64,000 bases of DNA from Synechococcus sp. LA31 (GTDB taxonomy: Bacteria; Cyanobacteriota; Cyanobacteriia; PCC-6307; Cyanobiaceae), in the NCBI RefSeq assembly GCF_018502385.1, contig NZ_CP075523.1:2294001-2358000 (forward strand), in the 5' to 3' direction. The position numbers were made by a program, and so were the translations under genes. The notes under the pieces are model-generated. The model had not been told where the DNA came from. It worked only from the letters and a program-made list of their open reading frames with translations, and did no database searches. Numbering within the stretch: the stretch's first letter is position 1; every line of letters begins with the position of its first letter. Positions 27,943-37,554 of this stretch are shown here, one piece after another.

Positions 27943-28032
27943 CGGCTCGCTTCCCTCACGTCTGTGCTGTGGCAATGGGTGGGCCGGTCTGTGACCCTGT
28001 TCGGAGCACTACCACCAAACCGAACACAGACC

Positions 28033-29289
28033 ATGACCCGCACCCATAGTGGCGCCTCCGAGCTGGGTCAGCTCATGGAGGGCACCACCGCTGGCGCCCT
28101 GATCCTTGAGATTGTGCGCCGGGGTTTCCAGGATCTGCTGGAAGCCGAGGTCTCCGCTGCCATTGGTGCCACGCGCCATGAGCGCTGCCCTGACGAGCGC
28201 TCCACCCACCGCAACGGCTACCGCGAGCGGGTGCTCACCACCCAGGTGGGCGATCTCAGCCTGGCTATCCCCAAACTGCGTCAGGGCAGCTTCTTCCCCG
28301 ACTGGCTCGAGCCGCGCCGCAGGGTCGACAAAGCTCTTTACGCCGTGGTGATGGAGGCCTACACCGGCGGCATCTCCACACGAAAGGTCGATTCACTGGT
28401 CGAGGCGCTGGGCGGGGCGAGCGGCATCTCCAAATCGGAGGTGAGCCGCATCTGCGCTGGGCTCGACGAACAGGTGAAAGCCTTTCTGGGCCGGCCACTT
28501 GACCACGCCCGCTTTCCCTACGTCTACCTCGATGCCACCTATCTCCATGGCCGGCTCGGCCGCAACATGCAGGTGGTGTCAAGGGCGGTGGTGGTGGCGA
28601 TCGGCATCAATGCCCTCGGCTATCGGGAGGTGCTCGGTATCGCCGTGGGAGACAGCGAAGCTGAAGGCTTCTGGCGGCAGTTCCTGGGTTCGCTCAAGGA
28701 GCGCGGCCTGGACGGTACCCGGCTGGTGATCTCAGACGCCCACCTGGGGCTGACCGCGGCGATCAAGCGGATGTTCCAGGGCTGCTGCTGGCAACGCTGC
28801 CGGGTGCACTTCCTGCGCAACATGCTGTCCCACGTGCCCAAAGCGGGCCAAGACATGGTGGCGGCGGCCATGAAAGCGGTGTTCGTGATCCAGGCACCGG
28901 ATCAGGTGCGTGCCCACTGGCAGCGGGTCACCGAAATGCTGCGCAAGCAGTTCCCCACCGCTGTGCCGGTGATGGAAGCCGCCCGTGACGACGTGCTGGC
29001 CTTCCTCCACTTCCCACAGGAGCACTGGCGCAAGGTCTGGAGCACCAACCCGCTTGAGCGCCTCAACAAGGAGATCAAGCGGCGCACCAACGTCGTGGGG
29101 ATCTTCCCCAACGACGCGTCGATCGTGCGGCTGGTTGGCGCTCAGCTACTGGAACAGCAGGAGGAATGGCAGCTGGAGCGCCGCCGCTTCTTCTCTGAGG
29201 CCACCATGGCCAAGATCCCGGAGCCAGAAGAGGCCCTGGAGCTCGCCGATGGTGAAGGCGCTGATGAGGAACCTGGAACACTCAGCTGA
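28033..29289 (+). CDS. IS256-family (mutator-type) transposase
   Basis: 418 residues from ATG 28033 (MTRTHSGASELG). The DDE catalytic residues are D167 (VYLDATYLHGR), D235 (VISDAHLGL) and E342 (STNPLERLNKEIKRRTNVVGIFPND). The conserved C/H region CWQRCRVHFLRNML is present between D2 and E. No stop or frameshift, so it is probably active. An inverted repeat just before the ATG (CTGTTCGG ... CCGAACACAG, 28000-28026) could mask the translation start. The TTG at 27964 is not the true start. Confidence 0.95.
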   Translation: MTRTHSGASELGQLMEGTTAGALILEIVRRGFQDLLEAEVSAAIGATRHERCPDERSTHRNGYRERVLTTQVGDLSLAIPKLRQGSFFPDWLEPRRRVDKALYAVVMEAYTGGISTRKVDSLVEALGGASGISKSEVSRICAGLDEQVKAFLGRPLDHARFPYVYLDATYLHGRLGRNMQVVSRAVVVAIGINALGYREVLGIAVGDSEAEGFWRQFLGSLKERGLDGTRLVISDAHLGLTAAIKRMFQGCCWQRCRVHFLRNMLSHVPKAGQDMVAAAMKAVFVIQAPDQVRAHWQRVTEMLRKQFPTAVPVMEAARDDVLAFLHFPQEHWRKVWSTNPLERLNKEIKRRTNVVGIFPNDASIVRLVGAQLLEQQEEWQLERRRFFSEATMAKIPEPEEALELADGEGADEEPGTLS

Positions 29290-33405: not shown

Positions 33406-34335
33406 CTACGCCACAGGTGCATGAGCCTGGTTGACCAGTGGTGCTGGCAGGCGCACCTGGGTGGCGAGGCCGAGGCGCTGCAAGGCGCTGATGTGCATCC
33501 AGGTGAGGTCAGGCTCGCGGCGGCCCCAGCCGTGGCGGGCGGAATGGGGATAGGCGTGGTGGGTGTTGTGCCAGCCCTCACCGAAGGTGACCGCGGCCAC
33601 CCAGGGGTTGTTGCGGGAGCCGTCGCCGCTGTCGTGGAGCACGTAGCCCCAGCGGTGGGTGGCGGAGTTCACCAGCCAGGTGGCGTGATACACGAGCACC
33701 AGGCGGAGTGGGATGCCCCAGAGCACCAGGGCCCAGCCGCCAGCGCCCGTTGCCGTGCCGATCCAGAACAGCAGACCGGCCAGGGGTAGCTGCAGCAGAA
33801 GGAAATTGTTGTTCAGCCAGCGGTAGTAGGGGTCGGCGGTGAGATCGCCAGTGAGGCGAGGCACAGCGCCCATGGCCGGGATCGACTTGAACATCCAGCC
33901 CATGTGGCTCCACCAGAAGCCGCGATGGCTGTTGTGGTGATCCGGTTCCGTATCGGAAAACTTGTGGTGATGGCGGTGCAGGCCCACCCAGTCGATCGGG
34001 CCGTGCTGGCAGCTGAGGGCGCCGCAGGTGGCGAAGAAGCGCTCCAGCCACAGGGGTACTCGGAAGGCGCGGTGGCTGAGCAGACGGTGGTAGCCGATGG
34101 TGACGCCAAGGCAGGCGGTGAGCCAATAGAGCACCACCAGCGTGGCCACCGCTGCGACGCTCCAGAACTGGGGCAGCAGGGCCACCACGGCCAGGGCGTG
34201 AAGGGCAACCATGAAGCCGATCACGGCCCAGTTGCGCCCCTGGGAAGGCGTGGCAACTGGGGCCGTGCCGTGTTGCGCGCCGTGCGGCCGGTGCAGATGC
34301 TGCACGCTGGCGCGGCTGGTGATGGTGGCCGTCAT
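33406..34335 (-). CDS. Delta-9-type acyl-lipid/acyl-CoA desaturase
   Basis: 309 residues from ATG 34335. The three His boxes are intact: HRLLSH at 83-88, HRHHH at 120-124 and HNTHH at 256-260. Two pairs of membrane helices surround them. Such enzymes introduce the first double bond into membrane-lipid acyl chains and in cyanobacteria are important at low temperature. It diverges from the DNA-binding-like gene at 34387, and a second desaturase lies beyond that. Confidence 0.95.
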   Translation of the reverse strand: MTATITSRASVQHLHRPHGAQHGTAPVATPSQGRNWAVIGFMVALHALAVVALLPQFWSVAAVATLVVLYWLTACLGVTIGYHRLLSHRAFRVPLWLERFFATCGALSCQHGPIDWVGLHRHHHKFSDTEPDHHNSHRGFWWSHMGWMFKSIPAMGAVPRLTGDLTADPYYRWLNNNFLLLQLPLAGLLFWIGTATGAGGWALVLWGIPLRLVLVYHATWLVNSATHRWGYVLHDSGDGSRNNPWVAAVTFGEGWHNTHHAYPHSARHGWGRREPDLTWMHISALQRLGLATQVRLPAPLVNQAHAPVA

Positions 34336-34370
34336 GGCCCCTCCGGTTGTGTCCGATAAAATGGTAGCAG

Positions 34371-34382
34371 TACGGATCCGTA
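34371..34382. promoter_or_regulatory. 12-bp palindrome in the divergent desaturase promoter region
   Basis: TACGGATCCGTA is a perfect palindrome, 4 nt upstream of the GTG start at 34387, in the 51-bp gap between the desaturase and the next gene. A possible -10 (GATAAAAT, 34355-34362) lies 8 bp upstream. It is a plausible operator, but there is no independent support. Confidence 0.4.
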
Positions 34383-34386
34383 TCGA

Positions 34387-35169
34387 GTGGATTATCGAAG
34401 CGAACTCGAAGCGGGTCGCGATGCGTTCGGCCATCTGATCAAGGTGTGGCATGAGCGCAATGCTTGGAGCCAGCGGGTGTTGCCGGCCTTGGCGGATGCG
34501 CTGGATCTCGGCCGGGTGCACAACTCCCAGCTCTCCAACTTGCGCAATCGCAAGCTCGCCTCCCCGGGGCCGGAGCTGTTCGTGGCCTTGGGGCGGATCA
34601 ATCAACTGTTGGCCCAAAGTGCAGGACCAGCTGGCCTGTCGGGGGGGCTCGCTGAGCAGCTGGCTGAGCAGCCCGAATTGCTCGCAGCCCTCCAGGCTTC
34701 AGCGCTGCCTTTGCTGGCCGACGACGGCTCAGCCTTGGGGCCAGCCCAGCTGTTTGAGATTTTCGTGGGCCTGCGCCCGCTGCCGAGCGCGTTTGATTTG
34801 CGCATTCAGGCATCGGAGGCGGCTGGTCTGAGTGCGGCGCTGGCGGAGCTGTTTACGGCGGGGCGGCCTTGGCGCCTGTGCCGTGAACAGGTGCTGGCCG
34901 CCTATCCGGCTGAGAAACGGCAGCGGCGTGAGCGCTTCGCTGAGGTGATGGCCGGCCAGCGGGACTACACCGCTGAGGAGCTGGATGGTGAACTCGGCGA
35001 CCTGCGCCTCACCTTGGCGGCCATGGGGGCGGCGGCTGAGGAGGAGCTGAGTGCTGATCAGTTTCTGGAGCTGCTGCGCCAAAAAGCCCGGCTGCTGCTG
35101 CAACCGGGCTCGGGTGATCAGGCTCTCGATCTGGCCGAGGCAATCCGCCGTGAGCTTCAGGCGGGGTAG
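34387..35169 (+). CDS. Putative DNA-binding protein between two desaturases
   Basis: 260 residues from GTG 34387. The N-terminal 70 residues have a helix-turn-helix-like arrangement (WSQRVLPALADALDLGRVHNSQLSNLRNRKLASPGPELFVALGRIN), recalling Xre-type DNA-binding folds. The rest is helical and Leu/Ala-rich with no enzymatic motif. It is divergent from the first desaturase and its 3' end overlaps the second desaturase's stop by 13 nt. Regulation of the desaturases is inference from position. Confidence 0.6.
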   Translation: MDYRSELEAGRDAFGHLIKVWHERNAWSQRVLPALADALDLGRVHNSQLSNLRNRKLASPGPELFVALGRINQLLAQSAGPAGLSGGLAEQLAEQPELLAALQASALPLLADDGSALGPAQLFEIFVGLRPLPSAFDLRIQASEAAGLSAALAELFTAGRPWRLCREQVLAAYPAEKRQRRERFAEVMAGQRDYTAEELDGELGDLRLTLAAMGAAAEEELSADQFLELLRQKARLLLQPGSGDQALDLAEAIRRELQAG

Positions 35170-36122
35170 CGCGCCTCGCGGATGCGCTTGGCCCAGCCCA
35201 GCGTTCGCAGCAACTTGATGTGCTGCCAGGTGATGTCGAACTCAAACCAGCGCAGGCCGTGGCGGGCGCTGGAAGGGTGGGCGTGGTGGTTGTTGTGCCA
35301 GCCCTCGCCGAAGCTGAGGATCGCCACCCACCAGCAGTTGCGTGAGAGGTCGGGGCAGTCGAAGTTGCGATACCCGAAGGCGTGGGTGGCGGAGTTCACC
35401 AGCCAGGTCACGTGATACACGAGCACGAGGCGCAGCGGAATCGCCCACAGCACCAGGCCCAGGCCGCCGCCGTGCACGTTGGCGGCGTTGCCGTACCAAT
35501 AGAGAGCAGCGCCCAGGGGGATCTGCAGGAGCAGGAACCAGCGATCGAGCCAGCGATAGAAGGGGTCCTGGAGCAGGTCGCCAGTGAAGCGGTGCAGTTC
35601 CCTGATGGCGGGGATGTCGTGCAGCATCCACTCGCTATGGGCCCACCAGAGGCCGCGGGCCGCGTCGTGGTGGTCGTTGGGTTGGTCGGAAAACTTGTGG
35701 TGGTGGCGATGCAGGCCCACCCACTCGATCGGGCCGCTCTGGCAGGCCAGGGTGCCCATCAGCACCAGCACGCGCTCCACCCATTTGGGAGCGACGAAGC
35801 TGCGGTGGGCCACGAGGCGATGCAGGCCGAGGGTCACCCCCAGCACGGTGGCCCAGTAGAGAATCGCCAGCGCCACGAGGCCCTGCCAGCTCCAGTACTG
35901 CGGCAGCAAGGCAAACACCGCTCCCACGTGGATGGCGAGCATGAAGCCAGTGGTGCCCAGCTTGTATTTCTTCTGGCTGCGGGGCAGTGGTGCGCGGGGG
36001 ACCACGAGGGCTGCCCGCATCCGGGCTTCCTGCGCGTCGCTGTAGCTGCCTGACCCACCCTCCAGGTCAGCGCTGGTGCGCTGGGCGCGTGCCGCGGAGG
36101 CGGTGTCTGGGGCTAAGACCAA
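35157..36122 (-). CDS. Delta-9-type desaturase, second copy
   Basis: 321 residues. His boxes HRLVAH (101-106), HRHHH (138-142) and HNNHH (276-280) are complete, and the spacing matches the first desaturase at 33406. The N-terminal 50 residues are extra and low-complexity. The start is TTG 36122, supported by a strong Shine-Dalgarno GAGGAG six bases upstream; ATG 36020 would give 287 residues. The two paralogues are far less similar than recent duplicates. Confidence 0.93.
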   Translation of the reverse strand: MVLAPDTASAARAQRTSADLEGGSGSYSDAQEARMRAALVVPRAPLPRSQKKYKLGTTGFMLAIHVGAVFALLPQYWSWQGLVALAILYWATVLGVTLGLHRLVAHRSFVAPKWVERVLVLMGTLACQSGPIEWVGLHRHHHKFSDQPNDHHDAARGLWWAHSEWMLHDIPAIRELHRFTGDLLQDPFYRWLDRWFLLLQIPLGAALYWYGNAANVHGGGLGLVLWAIPLRLVLVYHVTWLVNSATHAFGYRNFDCPDLSRNCWWVAILSFGEGWHNNHHAHPSSARHGLRWFEFDITWQHIKLLRTLGWAKRIREARYPA

Positions 36123-36128
36123 AGTGAA

Positions 36129-36134
36129 CTCCTC
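36129..36134 (-). promoter_or_regulatory. Shine-Dalgarno deciding the TTG start of the second desaturase
   Basis: GAGGAG on the minus strand, spaced 6 nt from TTG 36122. The strength of this site favours the TTG start over the internal ATG at 36020. Confidence 0.6.
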
Positions 36135-36288
36135 AAGGATGCGCAGGCGCCGGTTCGCTCGGGGGCCTCGTGACCCCGCGCACCACTGCCTGGGTGCCCC
36201 GCTGTAGCCGAGGCACCAATCCGAAAAAATCTAGACGGATGGTTGAGCGTCACGCGGCCGGCAGCATGGAGATTCGTTGTTTCTTGCC

Positions 36289-37554
36289 ATGAGCGCATCC
36301 CATCAGGCCTGGGCTTCCGATCAGCTGGCTGCCGCGCTCGAGCGCACCACCGCCCTGGCTCGTGAGCGCCGGGCCGGGGTGAAGCCTCGGCTGAAGCGGG
36401 TGCTGCAGGCCTTCAGTGCCGAGAGGCTGGGGGTGCATCACTTCGCCTCGGTGAGTGGCTACGGCCACGGTGATCTGGGCCGGGAGGTGCTGGATCGGGT
36501 GTTCGCCCAGGTGTTGCAGGCGGAGGCGGCTGCCGTGCGGCTGCAATTTGTCAGCGGAACCCATGCCATCGCTGCCGCGCTGTACGGGGTGCTGCGCCCC
36601 GGAGATCGCCTATTGGCTCTCACTGGTCGCCCTTACGACACGCTCGAGGAGGTGATCGGCATCCGTGGCAGCGGCCAGGGCTCGCTGGCGGAGTTCGGCA
36701 TCGCCTACGACGAGCTCGATCTGCTGGCGGATGGTGGTGTGGATGAAGCGGGCATCGCCGGCGCCCTGGCTGTGCCGACCCGCATGGTGCTCATCCAGCG
36801 CAGCTGCGGCTACAGCTGGCGCCCCTCGCTCACCGTGGAGCAGATCGGTCGGCTGGTGGAGCAGGTGAAGGCGATTCAGCCCGACTGTGTGGTGTTTGTG
36901 GACAACTGCTACGGCGAGCTGGTGGAGCTGCAGGAGCCCACAGCTGTGGGTGCAGATCTGATGGCGGGCTCACTGATCAAAAACCTTGGCGGCACCATCG
37001 CCCCTACCGGCGGCTACGTGGCTGGCCGTGCCGAATGGGTGGAGCAGGCCTGCTGCCGGCTCACGGCGCCGGGTATCGGCAGTGAGGGGGGCACGGGATT
37101 TGATCTGCACCGGCTGCTGTTTCAGGGGTTGTTCCTGGCGCCGCAGATGGTGGCGGAAGCCTTGCTGTGCGCGGAGCTCGCCGCGGCTGTGTTCGACGGC
37201 CTCGGTTACGCGGTGAAGCCCTTGGTGGGCGGCTTGCGCAGTGATGTGATCCAGGCGGTGCGTTTCGGGGCACCGGAACCGCTCAAGGCGGTGTGCCGTG
37301 CGTTTCAGGCCTGTTCGCCTGTGGGCAGCTACCTCGATCCGGTGCCGGCCCCGATGCCCGGCTACGCCAGTGAGCTGGTGATGGCAGGCGGCACCTTCAT
37401 CGATGGCAGCACCAGTGAGTTCTCAGCCGATGGCCCGCTGCGCGAGCCCTACGTGCTCTACGCCCAGGGAGGCACCACCACAGCCCACGCAGAGCTGGCC
37501 CTGGAGCAGGCGTTGCTGGCGCTGGCGGACGGCGGGTGGTGCGGGCCTGCCTAG
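36289..37554 (+). CDS. PLP-dependent methionine gamma-lyase/cystathionine beta-lyase-like protein
   Basis: 421 residues from ATG 36289. It matches the group often labelled aluminium-resistance protein: HHFASVSGYGHGDLGREVLDRVFA, LQFVSGTHAIAAAL, FVDNCYGELVE, and the PLP-lysine region MAGSLIKNLGGTIAPTGGYVAG, where Lys would form the Schiff base. Family members are Cys/Met-metabolism-type PLP enzymes with uncertain substrate. It precedes gcvH by 55 nt on the same strand, so it may share the transcript with the glycine cleavage genes. Confidence 0.85.
   Translation: MSASHQAWASDQLAAALERTTALARERRAGVKPRLKRVLQAFSAERLGVHHFASVSGYGHGDLGREVLDRVFAQVLQAEAAAVRLQFVSGTHAIAAALYGVLRPGDRLLALTGRPYDTLEEVIGIRGSGQGSLAEFGIAYDELDLLADGGVDEAGIAGALAVPTRMVLIQRSCGYSWRPSLTVEQIGRLVEQVKAIQPDCVVFVDNCYGELVELQEPTAVGADLMAGSLIKNLGGTIAPTGGYVAGRAEWVEQACCRLTAPGIGSEGGTGFDLHRLLFQGLFLAPQMVAEALLCAELAAAVFDGLGYAVKPLVGGLRSDVIQAVRFGAPEPLKAVCRAFQACSPVGSYLDPVPAPMPGYASELVMAGGTFIDGSTSEFSADGPLREPYVLYAQGGTTTAHAELALEQALLALADGGWCGPA

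Follow-up and report, generated by a model that had tools for sequence, protein, structure and literature searches.

A phage-repressor-related protein, its putative palindromic site and one desaturase gene in the Cyanobiaceae

Is there a protein in the Cyanobiaceae that controls membrane unsaturation from beside the genes that it governs, and if so, which desaturase does it serve? The question is raised by a locus of Synechococcus sp. LA31, where a gene with a helix-turn-helix-like start lies between two genes for delta-9-type desaturases and is preceded by a short palindrome. We address it from a stretch of 64,000 nucleotides (the window; positions 2,294,001 to 2,358,000 of contig NZ_CP075523.1), part of a complete Cyanobiaceae genome of 2.75 Mb on a single contig of 2,752,051 bases. 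We refer to the central gene and its product as P1, to the desaturase upstream of it as D1, and to the one downstream as D2.

The desaturases have a published background. Pairs of delta-9 desaturase genes with one locus tag between them are on record, for example SynWH7803_2415/2417 and PMT2172/2174 (PMC2593844). By gene order, SynWH7803_2416 would be the ortholog of P1. desC4 is reported for every brackish isolate and for 47 of 48 freshwater isolates, and 22 of 48 marine isolates lack it (PMC9361551). The gene is strongly differentially expressed at low temperature, with desC3 a core gene (PMC7393227), and in strain WH5701 it is upregulated at 50 PSU (PMC12834511). In marine Synechococcus, the presence of DesC4 is described as separating warm from cold lineages. 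Within the open-access literature, with subscription journals outside the scope, we found neither a named regulator of desC4 nor a description of P1, and a search by locus tag found no mention.

The locus and the linkage of P1 to one desaturase

The genes run in the order D1, P1, D2 along the window: D1 on the minus strand, a gap of exactly 51 bp (34336-34386), P1 on the plus strand, and D2 convergent to it (Table 1). Two claims of the first-pass annotation hold as made: two desaturase genes flank P1 at the expected coordinates, and the palindrome TACGGATCCGTA occupies 34371-34382, ending 4 nt before the GTG start of P1. Both flanking genes match PF00487 (FA_desaturase). P1 is 260 amino acids long; D2 begins with TTG, and the 3' ends of P1 and D2 overlap. 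The translations display three histidine boxes each (HRLLSH, HRHHH, and HNTHH in D1; HRLVAH, HRHHH, and HNNHH in D2). Gene order, distribution, and published locus tags make D1 probably DesC4, a delta-9 desaturase, and D2 is probably DesC3, which its distribution fits.

Table 1. Features of the P1 locus, with positions counted from the first base of the window.
Feature	Position	Strand	Basis
D1, acyl-lipid desaturase, probably DesC4 (delta-9)	33406..34335	-	PF00487, E=2.9e-17; divergent partner of P1 in 132/132 loci
Shine-Dalgarno-like GGAGG of D1	34340..34344	-	direct sequence reading
Predicted -10 (TAAAAT) of the P1 promoter	34357..34362	+	spacing conserved across loci
Predicted extended -10 (TGC-TACCAT) of the D1 promoter	34361..34369	-	overlaps the P1 -10; spacing conserved
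Operator-like palindrome AGTACGGATCCGTATC	34369..34384		perfect 12-bp core at 34371-34382; conserved beyond chance at fixed distance
P1, XRE-like helix-turn-helix regulator with all-helical C-terminal part (predicted)	34387..35169	+	AlphaFold model, VIA-align, phage homolog
D2, second acyl-lipid desaturase, probably DesC3	35157..36122	-	PF00487, E=2.3e-17; convergent beside P1 in 80/122 loci

P1 was not found to lie in a prophage or mobile element; it sits between the desaturases. The wider region is flanked in the window by dnaB- and rplI-like genes (identified by eye) and by a PF06838 gene. The latter, full-length and methionine gamma-lyase-like, adjoins D2 at 36289-37551 and is followed by ORFs that by eye resemble gcvH and gcvP. 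About 5 kb from P1 and D1, an ORF at 27964-29289 resembles, again by eye, a transposase of the Mutator/IS256 type.

P1 is widespread in this family. It is matched in 175 of 201 Cyanobiaceae genomes, and in 119 of the 131 with completeness of at least 90% and contamination of at most 5%. Across the class, P1 was present in 29 of 291 genomes, all 29 of them Cyanobiaceae, and was seen in no other family. A search through named genomes gave 62 loci, whose range extends from Vulcanococcus and Cyanobium to Prochlorococcus. In two genomes (G032 and G105; loci L202 and L203), the P1 match beside D1 carries internal stops, and these may be pseudogenes or assembly errors.

Which desaturase travels with P1? 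We collected 176 P1 loci, 135 of them distinct over the first 150 residues. D1 is divergent from P1 and within 500 nt in all 132 non-redundant loci with at least 500 nt of upstream sequence. A convergent D2 within the allowed distance is present in just 80 of the 122 loci with at least 1400 nt downstream, and therefore the linked gene is D1; the Prochlorococcus loci are among those that lack D2. Thus, D2 is a convergent neighbor, and not clearly a member of a module with P1 and D1.

A genus in which D1 is mostly missing provides a second view of this linkage. Many of its 34 genomes are incomplete, which weakens the absences. D1 was not seen in 28 of the 34, and all 28 also lack a P1 ortholog. 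D1 (at least 72% identity) is found in the other 6. Orthologs of P1 (59-60% identity) occur in 2 genomes of the genus, both adjoining D1; a third match (31% identity) is a mobile-element paralog. The remaining 4 D1-bearing genomes lack P1 and carry D2 and D1 in tandem. Each of the 19 genomes of the genus that passed the completeness filter has one or more desaturase matches. In another genus, genome G025 has D1 with neither P1 nor D2 beside it. Five genomes hence have D1 but not P1, which shows that D1 can be kept in the absence of P1.

Fold and phage relatives of P1

P1 had been read as having a helix-turn-helix (HTH)-like N-terminus. The predicted structure and the phage homologs support this reading; the profile libraries do not, as Pfam, NCBIfam, and PHROGs recognized neither a family nor an HTH in P1 itself, and sequence searches of the PDB gave only chance matches. 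Among 41 orthologs, 7 match HTH_3 weakly (best E 0.059), and many of the columns that are invariant between orthologs fall in the N-terminal 75 residues. The AlphaFold model (mean pLDDT 86.2, pTM 0.72) has a four-helix N-terminus, with helices at residues 3-25, 31-38, 46-53, and 62-78. Foldseek alone returned nothing at E <= 0.001 for this model, either in the PDB or among viral structures. With VIA-align, the top 31 rows are all XRE/HTH_3 regulators or DNA-binding domains, with Z scores of 4.4-7.4 (values below 8 are middling by the tool's own note). The best row is 2ofy_B (Z 7.4, rmsd 2.8 A, 80 aligned residues), and others include C.BclI (6.3), SinR (6.2), and P22 c2 (4.7). VIA-align found no convincing structural match beyond residue ~140. 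The Cro/C1-type HTH fold of P1 is thus a feature of the predicted model, and we use the term “XRE-like” because no HTH profile matched above its curated cut-off.

P1 also has distant relatives in phages: at ~30% identity, its homologs are repressor-like and lie on contigs of temperate phages. In two cyanobacterial genomes, the relative lies among Bro-N (1.1e-8) or KilA-N (1.3e-18) genes, with primase-helicase and integrase genes also nearby in one of them. Relatives were also found on 6 viral contigs; both contigs that were examined have a gene for the terminase large subunit, and anti-repressor and integrase matches are present on one of them as well. The relative in L208 matches HTH_31 at 1.8e-4 (22.2 bits, below the gathering cut-off of 27), HTH_3 at 1.5e-3, and a PHROG transcriptional repressor at 0.0074. 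An hhalign comparison of the P1 and phage families gave 99.3% (E 3e-20, 184 columns). The phage homolog found no match among INPHARED phage records.

These Cyanobiaceae temperate-phage proteins (L208 and L210-L215) are homologous to P1 over residues 9-205 and are encoded near anti-repressor, integrase, terminase, and primase-helicase genes. They also differ from P1: beyond the low identity, they form a separate clade, carry another inverted repeat, and have no desaturase neighbor in the two elements checked. In the midpoint-rooted tree, P1 (24 rows) stands apart from the phage and mobile sequences (7 rows) with full support and long branches. The other repeat, TTAGC-N5-GCTAA, is present in 4 of 8 upstream regions viewed (L208 and L210-L212), where it lies near the start codon of the repressor-like phage gene. 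One history, which we regard as doubtful, is that an ancestor of the Cyanobiaceae captured a phage repressor and turned it into a dedicated desC4 switch, whose phage-type sensing part would now read membrane or stress state and on which anti-repressors might still act. If this were true, infection and membrane unsaturation would share one control protein.

Conservation of the palindrome

The 12-bp palindrome is part of a longer element: the consensus of 62 sites at fixed distance is a perfect 16-bp palindrome, GATACGGATCCGTATC. In the whole genome, the exact 12-mer TACGGATCCGTA occurs once, and the only other match with up to one mismatch has one mismatch and lies in an apparent coding region.

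Conservation was measured in held-out loci: 74 representative orthologous loci whose P1 is less than 75% identical to that of the window, each scanned over 150 nt upstream of P1. The window 12-mer is matched with at most one mismatch in 15 of the 74 (0.02 expected from shuffles), with at most two in 30 (0.10 expected), and with at most three in 57. For this last count, the expectation is 2.5 by dinucleotide shuffling and 1.4 when P1 coding sequence serves as the control. Distances from the 12-mer to P1 cluster at 16 and 50-52 nt; in 62 loci, the distance of the 16-mer from P1 is 18 or 52-54 nt. A 28-nt footprint has 90% mean identity in 24 near loci, compared with 64% at four-fold sites. As a control, in D2-bearing loci, 50 of 56 regions upstream of P1 have a match with at most three mismatches, versus 3 of 49 regions upstream of D2.

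Conservation is not uniform. The right arm of the palindrome is more variable than the left, and in high-light Prochlorococcus just the GATAT-N6-ATATC-like ends remain, at an unchanged distance. In 10 of 85 representative loci, no site was found with up to five mismatches. Across 75 sites, none of 8 position pairs covaries between the arms beyond shuffles, although GATAAGGATCCTTATC, observed in two Prochlorococcus loci, had led us to expect it. Given this and the looser right arm, it is only the symmetric consensus that argues for a symmetric dimer site.

The pattern GATANGGATCCNTATC, allowing one mismatch, yields 23 sites across 17 of 41 genomes; 12 are in the P1 gap, and every one of the 5 exact matches is among these 12. 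The other 11 compare with 3 sites in 41 genomes for a reversed-pattern control, but CCTAGG-like words may be rarer, and we therefore draw no regulon from off-locus sites.

A proposed repressor and the alternatives

The palindrome adjoins a pair of opposed promoter elements. Of the 75 sites, 45 start with A and 30 with G. A minus-strand TANNNT, the putative -10 of D1, is separated from the site by 2 nt in 43 of the 45 A-type loci and by 3 nt in 24 of the 30 G-type loci; the corresponding plus-strand element of P1 precedes the site by 6 nt in 40 of 45 and by 4 nt in 17 of 30. Altogether, the spacing to the D1 -10 is kept in 67 of 75 sites and that to the P1 -10 in 57. By motif, the palindrome is predicted to lie over the start site of P1 and in the spacer of the D1 promoter. 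A sigma-70 scan reported no promoter with both hexamers, and no -35 was recognizable. An apparent upstream mini-ORF (ATG at 34361) was rejected, since several relatives carry ATA instead of ATG.

We favor, with a probability of roughly 0.68, a model where P1, a one-component regulator of the XRE type that is related to phage repressors and dedicated to D1, acts at the palindrome to repress its own gene as well as D1. A dimer of P1 would bind the 16-bp site; because the site lies over the predicted P1 start and in the D1 spacer, with the -10 elements overlapping, bound P1 would exclude RNA polymerase from both promoters and thereby silence both genes. A signal, be it cold, salt, or other stress, would release P1 and might be read by its helical C-terminal part. 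Binding, dimerization, repression over activation, and the signal are steps that we infer; two things favor repression as the sign, namely that the site covers the predicted P1 start and the D1 spacer and that the relatives of P1 resemble phage repressors. The suggestion of a local regulator of membrane unsaturation thus remains the best-supported reading of the locus, and it is narrowed to D1. The predicted XRE-type fold, the strict linkage, the conserved palindrome beside opposed -10 elements, the small number of matches elsewhere in the genomes, and the degradation of the palindrome without P1 speak for such a regulator. The evidence ties it to D1 only: P1 often has no D2 beside it, and the palindrome is missing upstream of D2.

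A related possibility, to our minds unlikely, is that P1 binds the same palindrome yet, instead of simply repressing both genes, acts from the spacer as an activator of D1 or shifts RNA polymerase from one of the overlapping promoters to the other. The site does lie between the D1 -10 and the position expected for a -35 that cannot be recognized, and the spacing to the D1 -10 is the better kept of the two. On the other hand, the phage homologs adjoin anti-repressors, as repressors do, and coverage of P1's own predicted start by the site fits repression.

Could the conserved block instead consist of two overlapping core promoters and no binding site at all? The most conserved stretch includes both -10 elements, and the lack of covariation between the arms would suit this explanation; however, the palindrome lies outside both -10 hexamers, and the 16-bp consensus is self-complementary and held at set distances from P1, so that we consider it quite improbable.

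The palindrome might also belong to another regulator, with P1 merely a linked neighbor. NtcA, which recognizes GTA-N8-TAC, is one such candidate: the window site contains GTA-N8-TAT, one base off this pattern and with the same spacing. This pattern is not conserved, however, as only 13 of the 62 fixed-distance sites have G at position 2 and only 1 has C at position 15, and the site lies at a predicted start and not near -41. The fate of the palindrome where P1 is missing also argues against an unrelated regulator. In the genus that mostly lacks D1, the two genomes with P1 have best 16-mer matches with 0 and 2 mismatches. Five genomes with D1 and no P1 were examined, namely four from that genus and G025; there, the palindrome is degraded, with best matches at 5 or 6 mismatches, a pattern underlain by few independent events. 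The left half, GATAAGGAT, remains in two of the four (G474 and G466) and in G025, and so may be of use to the D1 promoter itself; the other two have their best match far away, near the D2 end. Overall, control by NtcA or a similar outsider appears very unlikely. Finally, the palindrome can hardly work in RNA form, as a hairpin with which the P1 message begins: although the first 55 nt of the predicted message fold at z = -2.0, the arms are unpaired with each other in the predicted fold, an Rfam search gave no match, and pairing across loci is kept no more than by chance.

Repression of P1 and D1 by P1, the model that we favor, can be set beside known systems. XRE (Cro/C1-type) repressors such as SinR, P22 c2, and the C proteins of restriction-modification systems share with P1 an N-terminal four-helix HTH (in P1, as modeled) and a palindromic site at the gene's own promoter. 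Unlike them, P1 falls below Pfam HTH thresholds and would target a desaturase gene, and no structure convincingly matches its C-terminal part, which is all-helical. DesT of Pseudomonas is a local TetR-type repressor of a desaturase gene; by this description, it resembles the proposed role of P1 as a local desaturase regulator and differs in its DNA-binding family. DesK-DesR of Bacillus and Hik33-Rre26 of Synechocystis control cold-responsive genes, a likeness to the proposal for P1; these are two-component systems, and P1 is a single protein with no recognized receiver domain. DesR controls a delta-5 desaturase gene (PMC3264485).

P1, its putative site, and one desaturase form a family-wide module. 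With P1 and the 16-bp site found from Vulcanococcus to Prochlorococcus, the control of membrane unsaturation in abundant phototrophs becomes directly testable, and P1 is a candidate case of a phage-type repressor in core physiology.

Two further sequence elements were observed near the desaturase genes. In three close relatives (L008-L010), a second, partial half-site, CGATACGGACGCG, is present on the upstream side of the palindrome, close to where D1 starts, and could be an extra operator half. Upstream of D2 (36123-36260 in the window), a block, CCGTCTAGATTTTTTCGGATTGG, is common to some relatives (for example, L033); this region has no P1 palindrome, and the block may be a separate control site.
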